Source of the DNA: Bacteroidia bacterium | GTDB taxonomy: Bacteria; Bacteroidota; Bacteroidia; Flavobacteriales_E; Vicingaceae | Direction: 5' to 3' | Length of the DNA: 44,085 nucleotides | NCBI GenBank assembly: GCA_030429925.1 | Contig: JAUIGQ010000007.1 | Span: forward strand, 1-44,085 | In this document: positions 7,119-13,187 of the stretch, one piece after another | How the letters are laid out: every line of letters starts with the position of its first letter | Position numbering within the stretch: the stretch's first letter is position 1 | Notes under the pieces: generated by a model | What the model saw: the letters and a program-made list of their open reading frames with translations, nothing else | The model's database searches: none | Told to the model about the DNA's origin: nothing | Position numbers and translations under genes: made by a program

Positions 7119-9749
7119 TTAATCTTGAGGAGATACGTATTCATCCTCATTAGGTTTGGCAATTTTATCAATAAATTTCCCAAATTTCCCCTTTTTCTCA
7201 CTTTTCTTTCCTTCTTCCTTCTTAGGCTGCTCCTGTTTTTGCTCCGTTTTCGACGGCTCTTCTTCCCATTCGATCTCAAAAACGGGAGACTTCTTTTCTT
7301 CTTTATTGGGATTTACCAAGGTGCTATCCCCCTTAAAGAGTCCAAACTCTTCCTTCAGTATAGCTTTCAGCTTTTGTTTCTCCTCTTGAACTTCCTTTTT
7401 CAGGTGTTTTCCCAATTCTTGTCTATCATAGGCAATATTAGGGTCATTTATATTTCCTGTCATCCTCAAGAAAAGCTGTGTATTCCCCAGTCCGTCATCT
7501 TCTATATAACCAAACTCCGTTTCCTTTGGCTTTTTTGCTTTCTTGCCAAGGATCTGATCTAGAGAAAGGCTAATTCGATAGTCCACTATATTCTCAAAAG
7601 TGTGTGTGCCTTCCATCTCTAAGTTGATGGCTGAGGACCTTACCTTGAACCTCGGGATATATATTTCCTCATTGGCAATGCTTACCTGATTCTGAAGTTG
7701 CTGGAATTTTATCTCTTTTAATTCTTCAAGCTCAATATATTTAGAGAGATTATATAGAGGCTCATAATTGACTAGCCTTCCTTCGGTGATATCAATGAAA
7801 CCATTGAGTTCTAAGCTCTTCGGATCGATCTCTCCTTTCTCATTTATTTGAGATCTCATACTCATATATCCGCTAGCATTCCCATAAAGATTATCTGCAC
7901 CAATTACATCCTGACCAAAATCTTTGAACGCCAAGAAAAGTCCATGCACATCAATTGAATTGAATTCTGCTTGAGTCTGGATCTTGGTATATTCTTCAGA
8001 CATGTCTAGAGAAAGTTCACCCTTTACATCCCCACCCAAGCTATTAAAGTTGATGTCAGAAAGGTCAATGGTTGAGCCGTTGGATCGAAGGTAGAACTTG
8101 ACTTCTTCCATGTTGAGATCCATATAGCTCATTTTGTCAACTTCGCAATCCAGGTACATTTGAATGCTCCTCTTCTCTTTGCTCTCATCATTTGTATTGG
8201 TAAGTGCTAGGATATCTTCAAGTCGCAACATGGGGCTTCTGACCTCTCCGTCTAAGAAGAGAGTCTCGGAAGGCTTCTCAATATGGGAGATCAAATTGAG
8301 GACTTTCCCTCTATAATCTAATTTTAGTTGATTATAATTGAGTTGCAGTAGATCTGTATAAAGATCATTTGACCCAATAGCAACCTCAGTCTGAATAGCT
8401 GACAATTCTGAGCGATCATCTAGTTGAATAGCTCCATCATTTAGCTTTAGATAGATAGAATTATCGCCTTTTTTCCAAGCTTTGTAAAAAGATTCTTTGA
8501 TTATTTCCTTAGAGAGATCAAGGTCTAGCTCTGCTTCAAAAGCACCCCCCTTTATCTTCATTCTATCTTCAAGGAAAGGGTTCAGTTCAGATAAAGCACC
8601 ACTTATAGATCCTTTAACATAGTAAGAAGCGGTAGATGCCACAGACCAATAAGAAGATCCATGAAAATTCATACCATTCGCAATAGCATTTATCGTATCA
8701 GCTTTGATCGTTCCGGCTCCTTTTTTAGAGAGGTTATAACTTTCAAAACTTCCTTCGATCATGATCTTGGTTAGCTTCAGCTTCCCTTCTTGAAGTGTAA
8801 TCTCGCCCTTATTGATCTTGTAGTTGAGGTTTAGTTGTGGGCGAAATAACGGACCAAGTTCACCTTTCATTTTTCCCTTTATTTCAACATCAGCTTTAAT
8901 ATCCAGAGAATCTAACTTTAAGGTAGTTTCATCTGATAGCAAAGGGTAGAGTCCGGATAAGCTTCGCATGTCCCGGCTAAAATCAAGATCAACGATTACT
9001 TTATCGCTGTAGTCAAGATTTCCTTTTCCGTTTACTTTGAGTCCTTTCCAGCTAAGATTTAGATCATCAACCTGAAGGATCTTATCATCTTTTCTTATCC
9101 TGCAAATTGCCTCTAGATTGAAATCCTTTTCTGAAAAAGTAGGGCTTCCATTTTTAATATAGGTGAACTCAGAGATATCGGAGTTCCAGGAAAGATCAAA
9201 TTGTTCACTTGCAAAATTTCCCTTGGCCCAAGCATTTTGAATGCTCAATTTAAAACTGACCTTTTCATCTCTTTGCTTATAGTGCAAGCGAACATCGCTC
9301 ATTCCAACTTTTTGAAGCTGGATAGCAAAATCAATACTTTGATCTTCTACTTCCTCTGAATTCTTCCATATCTGTGGAAAGTACTTTCCATCTTCATCCT
9401 CATAAAGGTATAAGTCGGCATTGCTAATGGAAAGTGAGTTTAAACTGTAGTTCCTATCGATCAAATCGGCCAAGCTGAATTTGGCCCTGATCTCTTCTGC
9501 GGAAATAACGGTTGCTTCTGATCTATGGATCCTAACATCTTCCAAGATCAAGGAGAAATTGGGGAAATTCTGCCAAAGAGTGATGTCTACTTCTTTTACA
9601 TCTGCCTTTACCAGGAGATGCTTGTTGATCTCTTTCACCAAGAAAGCCTTGATCTCATCACCGTAGAAATAGGTGTAAAAGGCAATTCCTCCTATTAAAA
9701 GGAAGAGCAGAACTAATGATATTTTTAAAAGAGCTCTTAGATAGCTCAT
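7119..9749 (-). CDS. AsmA-like inner-membrane/periplasmic protein
   Basis: The protein has 876 residues. An N-terminal membrane anchor (about residues 8-27, LLKISLVLLFLLIGGIAFYTYF) is followed by the AsmA start pattern (FPNFSLILEDVRI, then long beta repeats with ADLYLYEDEDGKYFP). Its C-terminal AsmA_2-like part spans the middle to late region (VKGELSLDMS, LNGFIDITEGRL). AsmA-like and TamB-like proteins form long beta-grooves implicated in lipid transport to the outer membrane; that function is family knowledge. The last 60 or so residues are unusual: a highly charged, Lys/Glu-rich tail with many KEEKK-like runs, probably disordered. It starts 24 bases after the rluB-like stop and precedes the kinase gene by 61 bases on the same strand, so it probably belongs to one transcript. 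Confidence 0.88.
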   Translation of the reverse strand: MSYLRALLKISLVLLFLLIGGIAFYTYFYGDEIKAFLVKEINKHLLVKADVKEVDITLWQNFPNFSLILEDVRIHRSEATVISAEEIRAKFSLADLIDRNYSLNSLSISNADLYLYEDEDGKYFPQIWKNSEEVEDQSIDFAIQLQKVGMSDVRLHYKQRDEKVSFKLSIQNAWAKGNFASEQFDLSWNSDISEFTYIKNGSPTFSEKDFNLEAICRIRKDDKILQVDDLNLSWKGLKVNGKGNLDYSDKVIVDLDFSRDMRSLSGLYPLLSDETTLKLDSLDIKADVEIKGKMKGELGPLFRPQLNLNYKINKGEITLQEGKLKLTKIMIEGSFESYNLSKKGAGTIKADTINAIANGMNFHGSSYWSVASTASYYVKGSISGALSELNPFLEDRMKIKGGAFEAELDLDLSKEIIKESFYKAWKKGDNSIYLKLNDGAIQLDDRSELSAIQTEVAIGSNDLYTDLLQLNYNQLKLDYRGKVLNLISHIEKPSETLFLDGEVRSPMLRLEDILALTNTNDESKEKRSIQMYLDCEVDKMSYMDLNMEEVKFYLRSNGSTIDLSDINFNSLGGDVKGELSLDMSEEYTKIQTQAEFNSIDVHGLFLAFKDFGQDVIGADNLYGNASGYMSMRSQINEKGEIDPKSLELNGFIDITEGRLVNYEPLYNLSKYIELEELKEIKFQQLQNQVSIANEEIYIPRFKVRSSAINLEMEGTHTFENIVDYRISLSLDQILGKKAKKPKETEFGYIEDDGLGNTQLFLRMTGNINDPNIAYDRQELGKHLKKEVQEEKQKLKAILKEEFGLFKGDSTLVNPNKEEKKSPVFEIEWEEEPSKTEQKQEQPKKEEGKKSEKKGKFGKFIDKIAKPNEDEYVSPQD

Positions 9750-10666: not shown

Positions 10667-10702
10667 CGTAATCGGAGAAGGGAAAAAATATTTTAACTTG
10701 CC

Positions 10703-10728
10703 TGTAACTAATTGGATACTTCTTCGTC
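10703..10728 (+). promoter_or_regulatory. ECF-type promoter of the sigma-factor operon (copy 1)
   Basis: The sequence TGTAAC (10703-10708) and CGTC (10725-10728) are separated so that AAC and CGTC are exactly 16 bases apart. This is the classic -35 AAC / -10 CGTC arrangement of ECF sigma promoters. The same layout recurs at 12302-12327, with CTGTAACTAAT identical in both. It lies 22 bases before the sigma gene ATG, which suggests autoregulation. Confidence 0.8.
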
Positions 10729-10750
10729 CTACACCCACAAGAGAGCTTCA

Positions 10751-11236
10751 ATGAACACCAAAGAGTACAATACTATTGTTCGGTCCTACTCCGACAATGT
10801 CTATCGCTTTATTCTGAAAAATATTCGGGATGAGGAGAAGGCGCAGGATATTGTACAGGATGCATTTGAAAAAATGTGGAAGAAGGTAGAGGAGATTCCC
10901 TTTGAGAAGGCAAAATCATATCTATTTACAACTGCATATAGAACGATGATCGACCTAACCAGAAGGGAGAAGAAGCAGGGGAGCTGGGAGGAGATCACGG
11001 AGCCGACAACTCGAGCAACTCAGGACCATATTGATCTTTCAGAGATCCTGCAGAATGCCCTTGGAAAATTGTCTGAGGTGCAAAGGTCTGTAGTGATGCT
11101 TAGAGATTATGAAGGCTATGATTATAAAGAGATCGGGGAGATATGTAAACTAACTGAATCTCAAGTGAAGGTCTACATATTTCGAGCGAGGAAGCAGTTG
11201 AAAGAATATTTAGTAAGTGTAGAGACGGTTATTTAA
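10751..11236 (+). CDS. ECF RNA polymerase sigma factor
   Basis: The 161-residue protein has sigma-70 region 2 (NVYRFILKNIRDEEKAQDIVQDAFEKMW, residues about 16-43) and region 4 (LGKLSEVQRSVVMLRDYEGYDYKEIGEICKLTESQVKVYIFRARKQL). This is the compact two-domain layout of extracytoplasmic-function sigma factors. A TTG at 10712 would give a longer frame, but it falls inside the ECF-type promoter, so the ATG at 10751 is preferred. The stop codon TAA shares one base with the ATG of the next gene (TAATG), which implies translational coupling with its presumed regulator. The -35/-10 motif in front of this gene recurs in front of the beta-barrel gene downstream, so the factor probably controls itself and that gene. 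Confidence 0.95.
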   Translation: MNTKEYNTIVRSYSDNVYRFILKNIRDEEKAQDIVQDAFEKMWKKVEEIPFEKAKSYLFTTAYRTMIDLTRREKKQGSWEEITEPTTRATQDHIDLSEILQNALGKLSEVQRSVVMLRDYEGYDYKEIGEICKLTESQVKVYIFRARKQLKEYLVSVETVI

Positions 11237-12291
11237 TGAAGAAGAAGATCAATATAGAAAATTACGAGGCCTATTTGCTAGACTTGTCAGAAGGCAATAT
11301 CAGTGATGCAGATAGGGCTGAATTGATGCTTTTTCTTAATGAGCATCCTGAGATCGACTGGGATACTGATGACCTTCCTATCATTGAGGATAAGCCATCA
11401 GAGTTAAATGAAGTCTCAAAAGCCGACCTATTTAGGAATGAAGAAAGTGGATTGTCTCAAAAAGATCATCTGTTGATCTCTTCAATTGAGAAAACCCTTG
11501 ATCCCTCTGAAACGGAAGAACTCAGCAAGTTGCTGGAAGCTGATCCAGAGCTGCTGAAAGATCTGGCAGCATACCAAAAGACCATACTGCCGACAATAGA
11601 AGTTAGCTTTGAGAGAAAGGATGAGTTGATCAAGAAAGAAGGAAGAGTAATCTATTTCTGGGCATCTGCAGCGTCAATTGCTGCTGCCATATTGGCTCTC
11701 TTCCTATTTAATTTACCTAATGAAAAGTATAATCCCAGAACCAAAGGCTTTGTAGAAAGCACCATGGCCGATTCCAAAGTGGGCTTCTCATTTGAGGTTG
11801 AAGATGATGTTAATGATCAAAAGGAGAAGAAAATAATAAGGGTTGAGCCGGTAGAAGCTGAGATGGATCAGCTTGCTGAGGAGAAAGCGCCAAAAACTGA
11901 AGAGGTGGAATTAGAAAAGCCCCAACCTATTCCACCAATAGAGGAAAACGCTCCTCAATTGGCGGAAGTGAATGTGAAGAAGGAGGGGAAAGTTGAAGAG
12001 CCAGAAGCTTCCCCAGTAGAAGAGGAGAGCATAACTGTTCCAGATTTAGCAGAGAAGAATTCGGAGCCTAAAGCTGAAGCTCCAAAAGATACCAAACCAA
12101 ACAAGGTATATACTCCCATTGAGTTCGCCAAAAAAGTGGTAAAGGAAGATGTGCTTAATAACAAGAGTCTTCCAAAAGCGCTGATGGATGAAGTAGCAGA
12201 CCTCACCAACGATAAGGTGAAGCTAGAGAAAGAAAAAGACTCTCCGCAGTTTGCTCTTAACATAGGGAAGCTGAAGATCAACAAAAAATAA
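11236..12291 (+). CDS. Anti-sigma-like single-pass membrane protein
   Basis: This 351-residue protein follows an ECF sigma gene with a one-base overlap, the usual position of an anti-sigma factor. It has an acidic helical N-terminal half, one membrane segment (about residues 139-159, IYFWASAASIAAAILALFLF) and a long Glu/Pro/Lys-rich region of low complexity, probably periplasmic. Two stretches are similar: 11-40 (EAYLLDLSEGNISDADRAEL onward) and 79-112 (LISSIEKTLDPSETEELSKL onward), each followed by a D/H-P-E turn. They may be tandem sigma-binding helices. No zinc-binding HxxxCxxC anti-sigma motif is present. The sigma-inhibitor role is inferred from position and topology, not from a recognised domain. 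Confidence 0.75.
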   Translation: MKKKINIENYEAYLLDLSEGNISDADRAELMLFLNEHPEIDWDTDDLPIIEDKPSELNEVSKADLFRNEESGLSQKDHLLISSIEKTLDPSETEELSKLLEADPELLKDLAAYQKTILPTIEVSFERKDELIKKEGRVIYFWASAASIAAAILALFLFNLPNEKYNPRTKGFVESTMADSKVGFSFEVEDDVNDQKEKKIIRVEPVEAEMDQLAEEKAPKTEEVELEKPQPIPPIEENAPQLAEVNVKKEGKVEEPEASPVEEESITVPDLAEKNSEPKAEAPKDTKPNKVYTPIEFAKKVVKEDVLNNKSLPKALMDEVADLTNDKVKLEKEKDSPQFALNIGKLKINKK

Positions 12292-12301
12292 AGCGGTAGG
12301 C

Positions 12302-12327
12302 TGTAACTAATCAGCAACTTGCTCGTC
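12302..12327 (+). promoter_or_regulatory. ECF-type promoter of the beta-barrel gene (copy 2)
   Basis: TGTAAC at 12302-12307 and CGTC at 12324-12327 repeat the spacing seen at 10703-10728 (AAC, 16 bases, CGTC). CTGTAACTAAT is identical in both copies and the bases around CGTCC are also alike. It lies 20 bases before the ATG at 12348, in a gap of only 56 bases after the anti-sigma-like gene. Confidence 0.78.
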
Positions 12328-12347
12328 CCACCAATAAACAAGAAATC

Positions 12348-13187
12348 ATGAAAAAGCTAATACTAATTCTTGCAGTCTTATTCTACGGAGCTCAGCTTAT
12401 GGCTCAAGAATCAGATTCAACAAAAAAAGACACCACTTACACCATTGAATGGGGAAAGAAAACCATCATAATAATTGACAAAGGGAATGATAAGGTGATC
12501 ATAGAAGACAGTGATGAGGATGAAGATGTGGTTGTCAAGATAAATACCAAAAAGATCTACAGGAAGAAACGATATATTGGGATGGACTTTGGACTGAATG
12601 GATTTGTAAATGATGTTCAAAGTGTGGATCTAAGGGCTGATGAGAAGTTCATGGATCAGAACTATTATGGTTCATGGTATGTGGCTTTGAACTTTATGGA
12701 GAAATATCTGCCACTTTGGGAAGAGAAAGTTGGAGTGATGGTAGGAATGGGTGTTGAGTTCAACAAATACAAATTAGCAAGAGATTATACCATTGTAAAT
12801 GTGAGTGACTCAACCTTTGGAATTGTGGATTCAACCATTGATCTAGAAAAGAATTTATTCAAGTCAACTATGCTCAACCTTCCGGTGATGCTGGAGACTA
12901 ATATTGGAAAGGATAAGAATCACTCTTTTTATTTGGCAGCAGGAGCGATGCTCAGTTATAGATTAGGTTCAAAAACCAAACAAATATTCACATCAGACGG
13001 AGAAGATTACAAGACAAAAAGCAGGTCTGATTACAATATGAACGACTTAAGACTTAGTTTGATTGGAAGAATTGGTTATGGAAATGTAACTCTCTTTGCC
13101 TCTTATAGCTTAACTCCTTTCTTCCAAGAAGGTCGCGGTCCGGAGCTCTATCCATTTTCTGTTGGAGTATCTCTTGTTCCATTCTAA
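12348..13187 (+). CDS. Exported outer-membrane beta-barrel protein, probable ECF target
   Basis: The 279-residue protein has a signal peptide ending at LMAQ (about residue 20), then a short acidic linker (VIIEDSDEDEDVVVK) and a barrel-like series of strands from YIGMDFGLNGFV to the C-terminal FSVGVSLVPF with a terminal Phe. That is the general pattern of OMP_b-brl proteins of Bacteroidota. It is the third gene of the sigma cluster but has its own copy of the ECF-type promoter (12302-12327). A strong terminator follows at 13218. In related clusters such barrels often act as envelope-stress outputs. No specific ligand or activity can be read from the sequence. Confidence 0.82.
   Translation: MKKLILILAVLFYGAQLMAQESDSTKKDTTYTIEWGKKTIIIIDKGNDKVIIEDSDEDEDVVVKINTKKIYRKKRYIGMDFGLNGFVNDVQSVDLRADEKFMDQNYYGSWYVALNFMEKYLPLWEEKVGVMVGMGVEFNKYKLARDYTIVNVSDSTFGIVDSTIDLEKNLFKSTMLNLPVMLETNIGKDKNHSFYLAAGAMLSYRLGSKTKQIFTSDGEDYKTKSRSDYNMNDLRLSLIGRIGYGNVTLFASYSLTPFFQEGRGPELYPFSVGVSLVPF

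Follow-up and report, generated by a model that had tools for sequence, protein, structure and literature searches.

Two closely similar promoter-like sites occur in the window (the whole stretch of 44,085 nucleotides analyzed here), one upstream of an ECF sigma factor gene and the other upstream of a gene encoding an outer-membrane beta-barrel protein, and this locus raises the question of whether the sigma factor reads both sites and how far its regulon extends. The preliminary description had taken the sites for twin ECF promoters defining a local regulon. The features involved are the following:

10703..10728, forward strand: promoter-like site 1, putatively autoregulatory, before the sigma gene (-35 TGTAAC, N16, -10 CGTC)
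10751..11236, forward strand: ECF sigma factor, 161 aa, regions 2 and 4 (Pfam Sigma70_r4_2 4e-17, Sigma70_r2 4e-12)
11236..12291, forward strand: probable membrane anti-sigma factor, 351 aa, the ATG of which shares one base with the sigma stop codon (TAATG)
11428..11595, forward strand: anti-sigma-like domain, residues 65-120 of the second protein (VIA-align Z 5.0 to RsiW/MucA)
11653..11709, forward strand: predicted transmembrane helix, residues 140-158 of the second protein (from the model; hydropathy peak from residue 138)
12302..12327, forward strand: promoter-like site 2, before the barrel gene (TGTAAC-N16-CGTC)
12348..13187, forward strand: outer-membrane beta-barrel protein, 279 aa (Pfam OMP_b-brl_2 4e-12)

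The fuller form of site 1, CTGTAACTAAT...CGTCCTAC, extends over positions 10702-10732 (full sequence from 10702: CTGTAACTAATTGGATACTTCTTCGTCCTAC) and that of site 2 over positions 12301-12331 (full sequence from 12301: CTGTAACTAATCAGCAACTTGCTCGTCCCAC). As previously described, CTGTAACTAAT followed by CGTCC is present before both the sigma and the barrel genes, and exactly 16 nt lie between AAC and CGTC at both sites; the distance from the end of CGTC to the ATG, which had been given as 20-22 bases, amounts to 22 nt in the case of the sigma gene (ATG 10751) and 20 nt in that of the barrel gene (ATG 12348). The two sites have an 11-base run in common and differ in their spacers. The window contains the pattern TGTAACN{14,18}CGTC twice, versus 0.02 times expected (none of the 100 dinucleotide shuffles reached 2). 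A weight matrix derived from 164 sites, all from other loci, assigned 28.9 and 28.1 bits to the two sites but only 8.4 bits to the next best position of the window, in line with the earlier remark that no third copy was noticed there; the maxima obtained in 20 mononucleotide shuffles of this 44-kb stretch ranged from 4.7 to 20.3 bits.

Both positions recur in relatives. Orthologs of the anti-sigma gene were identified in 35 of the 46 genomes of the order, and among the 30 order loci read, the window's own locus (L007) included, a site with 9 or more of the 10 bases was found before the sigma gene in 29 and before the third gene likewise in 29, spacings of 15-18 being allowed in the scans of these loci and of the other relatives. 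The sigma gene of L020 has a weak site (AGTAAC...CGTT), and in L016 the anti-sigma gene is not immediately followed by a barrel gene, the site being located about 1 kb further on, before a displaced barrel gene (L212). A scan with the sigma protein yielded at least 579 related stretches, the best 80 of which were analyzed and are therefore not a random sample; in these 80 loci, which include two labelled Chlorobiota, a site of at least 9/10 bases was present 20-200 nt upstream of the sigma match in every case (80/80). Cultured relatives such as Marinifilum flexuosum and Labilibaculum filiforme are among the bacteria in which the module has both sites. When the two sets were pooled, three of the order loci being the same DNA as three loci of the phylum scan, the count of sigma sites was 106/110: L007, L015, and L035 do have sites, an upstream start having been called in these genes, and L020 is the real miss. 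The sigma gene's own promoter-like site is thus conserved in its orthologs, as in autoregulated modules.

The occurrence of the second site parallels that of a barrel gene. Among the 102 loci with a recognizable anti-sigma ORF, some of which come from the best 80 of the at least 579 stretches, both the site and the barrel gene were found in 59, the barrel gene only in 1, the site only in 6, and neither in 32, while 4 loci were truncated (Fisher p about 1e-18, uncorrected for relatedness). The lone barrel gene without a site, among the 60 detected after an anti-sigma gene, is that of L045. As regards the site-only loci, L022, L025, L032, and L033 end before or inside a barrel gene found in the genome, L100 carries a DUF2807 protein without any Pfam barrel match, and the site of L053 is a weak 9/10 match. 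The recurrence of the sites at the same two positions and the association of the second one with the barrel gene support the view that they are twin ECF promoters.

In some lineages (L029, L022, L100, and others), the second-site gene begins with a DUF2807 (head GIN) domain. This domain precedes the barrel in L029, and no barrel was detected in L022 and L100; since DUF2807 stands behind the second site with or without a barrel, the part preceding the barrel has been swapped between lineages.

The sites were selected on the TGTAAC and CGTC boxes alone (at least 9/10 bases), so the identity of 96-100% recorded for the boxes is partly built in, and that of the spacers is only 30-41%. The conservation extends to positions which played no part in the selection: the four positions that follow TGTAAC are occupied by A or T in 106, 106, 105, and 98 of the 106 sigma sites, respectively, and 102 of these sites have an A three bases beyond CGTC. 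The consensus obtained is CTGTAACWWWW, 12 or 13 nt, CGTCNYAY, and the spacing between TGTAAC and CGTC in the sigma sites is 16 in 29 cases and 17 in 77, only these two values being considered. AAC and CGTC boxes placed 16 or 17 nt apart are the form typical of ECF promoters.

The search pattern proposed in the preliminary description was of use in its extended form only. The loose pattern TGTAACN{14,18}CGTC matched the 2.6-Mb genome to which the window belongs 6 times versus 35 times for the reversed control pattern, and as it is unselective by itself, an extended, strict motif (TGTAACWWWW-N12/13-CGTCNYA) was built from the sites of the relatives. In the same genome, this motif has exactly 2 matches, both at the sigma locus, versus 0 for the control; random distribution of the motif over the genome, which had been named as evidence against the proposal, is therefore what the loose pattern shows and the extended one does not. 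In the 46 genomes of the order, the strict motif has 83 sites versus 11 for the reversed control, and in six named isolates (of Carboxylicivirga, Labilibaculum, Marinifilum, and Ancylomarina) 25 sites versus 0, its frequency ranging from 0 to 5 per genome searched. Scans in which two mismatches were allowed gave fewer matches than their controls (17 vs 43 and 14 vs 45). The loose-pattern match at G000:C174, in the window's own genome, was rejected as it is without the run of A or T.

The 161-aa product of the first gene consists of regions 2 and 4 only, is within the usual size range of about 160-200 aa for ECF sigma factors, and gave profile matches to the solved ECF sigmas SigE, SigW, SigH, and RpoE. 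The best NCBIfam model is NF058625 (sigma_PG0214), but the score of 113.7 bits is below the curated cut-off of 130, and the window sigma is not placed in this equivalog family. The PG0214 protein of Porphyromonas gingivalis is, we take it, probably SigCH/PGN_0319. According to PMC10101095, PG_0214 adjoins a putative anti-sigma gene, PG_0215, and the expression of both increases in a mutant transcriptome; the adjacent putative anti-sigma gene is a feature which PG_0214, of the PG0214/GFO_1088 family (NF058625), has in common with the present locus, whereas the gene listed next in the same source, PG_0216, encodes a DUF4252 protein and not a barrel.

The 351-aa product of the second gene showed no Pfam match, and no sequence relative was found among the PDB entries. 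In the AlphaFold model, which was built with 43 sequences, the helical N-terminal domain is confident (residues 1-40 and 65-120); it is followed, after the transmembrane helix, by a low-confidence tether of about 130 residues (about 160-290) and by a helix pair and a hairpin at the C-terminus (pLDDT about 50-74), the last residues of which are alike in close relatives. Residues 65-120 aligned at Z 5.0 with RsiW (5wuq_C) and MucA (6in7, 8z6g) and at Z 2.7 with ChrR (2q1z), so that RsiW, two MucA entries, and ChrR occupy the top four rows; the aligner itself warns that a Z under 8 can reflect a mere common arrangement, and Foldseek alone gave nothing significant with this domain (E above 1). The second protein looks like a membrane anti-sigma factor, in which the predicted domain resembles RsiW and MucA at a modest Z. 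RpoE-RseA, AlgU-MucA, and SigW-RsiW are autoregulated ECF sigma factors with membrane anti-sigma factors; the window system resembles them in that its predicted anti-sigma-like domain is nearest to the RsiW and MucA folds, and differs from them by its long tether and the co-regulated barrel gene next door.

The third protein was modelled with a hydrophobic N-terminus, a short N-terminal strand region, and about eight long strands, the nearest folds being those of Ail, OmpA, and OmpX (Foldseek, best E 3.6e-4). A divergent pseudouridine synthase gene lies to the left of the sigma gene, and yebC and a carbonic anhydrase gene lie to the right of the barrel gene. An AsmA-family protein of 876 aa is encoded two genes away from the sigma gene (window positions 7119-9749, reverse strand).

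The locus very probably combines a self-regulating switch, consisting of an ECF sigma factor and its membrane anti-sigma factor, with a co-regulated outer-membrane barrel and a few dispersed envelope genes, and we interpret the system as a sigma regulon that serves envelope homeostasis and is autoregulated. In the resting state, the sigma factor would be kept at the membrane by the anti-sigma factor, with its cytoplasmic domain, single transmembrane helix, disordered periplasmic tether, and small C-terminal element. A signal from the envelope would free the sigma factor, and the RNA polymerase carrying it would initiate transcription at CTGTAACWWWW-N12/13-CGTCNYA: the site at 10703 would give more sigma and anti-sigma factor, that at 12302 the separate barrel protein, and the freed sigma factor would also raise the expression of the few dispersed envelope genes. 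The analysis itself establishes the sites, their conservation, their association with the genes, and the predicted domain architecture. The sequence patterns suggest that these sites are read by the window sigma, and the predicted fold suggests that the second protein inhibits it; the trigger is presumably stress at the outer membrane or in the periplasm. The target families (the barrel, DUF5686, S41 protease, and DUF4097 proteins) fit an envelope role.

How the signal enters might be inferred from the nearest known system, Das/Dma of Bacteroides thetaiotaomicron, in which, according to PMC13088901, the Dma anti-sigma factors unite an anti-sigma domain, a transmembrane helix, a disordered tether, and a C-terminal barrel in a single chain and pair with the Das ECF21 sigma factors. 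Both systems belong to Bacteroidota and include an ECF sigma gene adjoining that of an anti-sigma factor with a transmembrane helix and a long tether, and a barrel is involved in both, but in Dma the barrel is fused to the anti-sigma factor, whereas here it is encoded separately, by a gene that has a promoter-like site of its own. The N-terminal anti-sigma domain (at a modest Z), the transmembrane helix, and the tether are all present in the 351-aa model; a C-terminal barrel in the same polypeptide is not, since this protein ends with the helix pair and the hairpin. As the barrel is separate and none of the 102 anti-sigma ORFs (0/102) matched a barrel profile made from 14 close barrels, the locus was not classed as a member of the Dma group, and by analogy it may work like a Dma system. 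One doubtful reading of the signal step is that the anti-sigma factor makes contact with the separate barrel through its periplasmic tail; the barrel would then be at once a sensor or feedback brake and a product of the regulon. The order of the parts is that of Dma (anti-sigma domain, transmembrane helix, tether, barrel) as given in PMC13088901, and the helix pair and hairpin, the last residues of which are similar in close relatives, come after the tether in the model, whereas 32 of the 102 loci yielded no downstream barrel gene or site, which indicates that a dedicated neighboring barrel is not always needed, and the comparison between the anti-sigma and barrel profiles revealed no similarity any more than the search of the ORFs did. 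Since it concerns only the signal step, this arrangement is compatible with the self-regulating switch described above.

Conservation alone leaves it unproven which sigma factor is the reader. The sites might be conserved and yet read by another ECF paralog or by a classical activator, the neighboring sigma gene being simply a target. Besides the window sigma, ten other ECF-type matches were identified in the genome, and an ECF-like motif may serve several sigma factors in Flavobacterium psychrophilum: according to PMC9723704, the SM6 motif has a CGT box at -10 and precedes one sigma/anti-sigma pair and secretion genes. SM6 resembles the present sites by this -10 box, by the single ECF sigma/anti-sigma pair, and by the presence of an ABC-transporter ATPase among the targets, and differs in that its targets include several type IX secretion genes, according to the same source. 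The form of the AAC and CGTC boxes is that of ECF promoters; the site accompanies this particular sigma gene in all of the best 80 of the at least 579 related stretches; and in the scannable DNA upstream of the remaining ECF-type genes (L225, the start of which is off the contig, being excluded, and L224 being a partial match), no good site was found, the best one scoring 10.5 of 13.5. With these observations, which lend further weight to the twin-promoter proposal along with the conservation of the unselected positions, we consider another reader improbable. That the twin sites are a functionless product of chance or of a recent duplication, as the 11-base run common to them might suggest, is next to impossible given the 0.02 occurrences expected, the different spacers of the two copies, and the recurrence of both positions in relatives with diverged spacers.

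The putative regulon of this sigma factor does not seem to stop at the locus. The 83 strict sites of the order consist of 58 in the sigma locus and 25 elsewhere, and the latter number, compared with the 11 controls, is a modest excess (binomial p 0.03). Exported or envelope families recur behind these dispersed sites: the commonest, with 9 of the 25, is that of DUF5686 proteins which also carry a CarboxypepD_reg-like domain, and the others are a 154-aa secreted family (4), an ABC ATPase (3), TonB-receptor plug proteins (2), and an S41 protease (1), while two of the 25 fall within coding sequence (L211). In the six isolates, the dispersed targets include DUF2807 proteins, DUF4097 proteins, which score below the cut-off with the LiaG/LiaX models, and a family of 414-417 aa without any Pfam match.

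Three one-mismatch matches were followed in the window's own genome (G000:C166, G000:C24, and G000:C69:3046-3075). The first (G000:C166:21099-21127, reverse strand) is located 189 nt before the gene of a 154-aa secreted protein; among 14 homologs of this gene, 7 are preceded by a site with a score of 12 or more (out of 13.5), one by a site scoring 11.5, and 6 by none, and five of the 7 sites lie at 184-198 nt, including that of a congeneric species, at 198 nt. The second (G000:C24:1617-1646, reverse strand) is 53 nt before a GNAT gene which is followed by a DUF5686 gene. Six DUF5686 matches were found in this genome, some of which are gene fragments at contig ends, and in the DNA examined only the copy in the GNAT operon has a site; as the site-bearing DUF5686 genes of the order form, by eye, two subfamilies, this gene is only putatively orthologous to each of them. 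The two extra sites score 20.5 and 23.5 bits, which is so close to the best shuffle (20.3, for the 44-kb window) that they could be due to chance by score alone; it is the comparative support from the relatives that makes them credible. The sequence comparisons indicate that the 154-aa secreted protein and the GNAT-DUF5686 operon are probably included in the regulon, which, in view of these sites at two other genes or operons with counterparts in relatives, is probably small and not strictly local. The term local regulon was therefore too narrow, all the more so as the relatives carry further members. The third match (21.7 bits), which overlaps the start codon of a 123-aa ORF, is likely to be due to chance.

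Several other observations were made around these sites. A second element, TTATACTACTATG, precedes the gene of the 154-aa secreted protein in 10 genomes (G000:C166, which is L226, and L227, L228, L229, L230, L232, L233, L234, L235, and L236), including some in which no sigma-type site precedes this gene; it is followed, by eye, by a TAnnTTTG-like box and was not found in the window. It is a likely operator. In L203 (G020:C265), a sigma-type site precedes the S41 protease gene, and the homology between the N-terminal part of this protease and the 154-aa protein hints that the small protein may be a stand-alone version of that protease domain. In three genomes of the order (L160, L169, and L171), a site is present 9-109 nt before genes of the same ABC-transporter ATPase family (ABC_tran), and in a genome of the same genus (L176, G039:C12), a strict site is located between a PspC/toast-rack gene and a 63-aa ORF resembling a membrane peptide.

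To our knowledge, outer-membrane stress signalling is poorly defined in Bacteroidota in comparison with RpoE in Proteobacteria. An autoregulated ECF sigma factor with a membrane anti-sigma factor is a system of a known kind; what is new here is the members, the promoter code, and the listing of the regulon. No published account of this code in Bacteroidota was found among the titles and abstract openings of the top-ranked literature, and the main text of Rhodius et al. (2013) contains neither ECF21 nor TGTAAC, although the motif may already be present in ECF catalogues. As the code stands before the sigma gene at nearly all the loci and its strict form is rare, listing the regulon is feasible: the code makes it possible to catalogue the regulon across many Bacteroidota genomes, which can then be tested by deletion. 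The locus would also provide, as a split counterpart of the fused Dma sensors, a model for the communication between an outer-membrane barrel and an inner-membrane anti-sigma factor. On the broadest interpretation, which is tentative and on balance unlikely, a large part of Bacteroidota would respond to outer-membrane stress through this sigma factor, their functional counterpart of RpoE, using a fixed promoter code and a feedback loop of the split Dma type. If this is true, the tail of the anti-sigma factor would sense the barrel, along with other outer-membrane proteins, that the sigma factor itself induces, closing a loop across both membranes.
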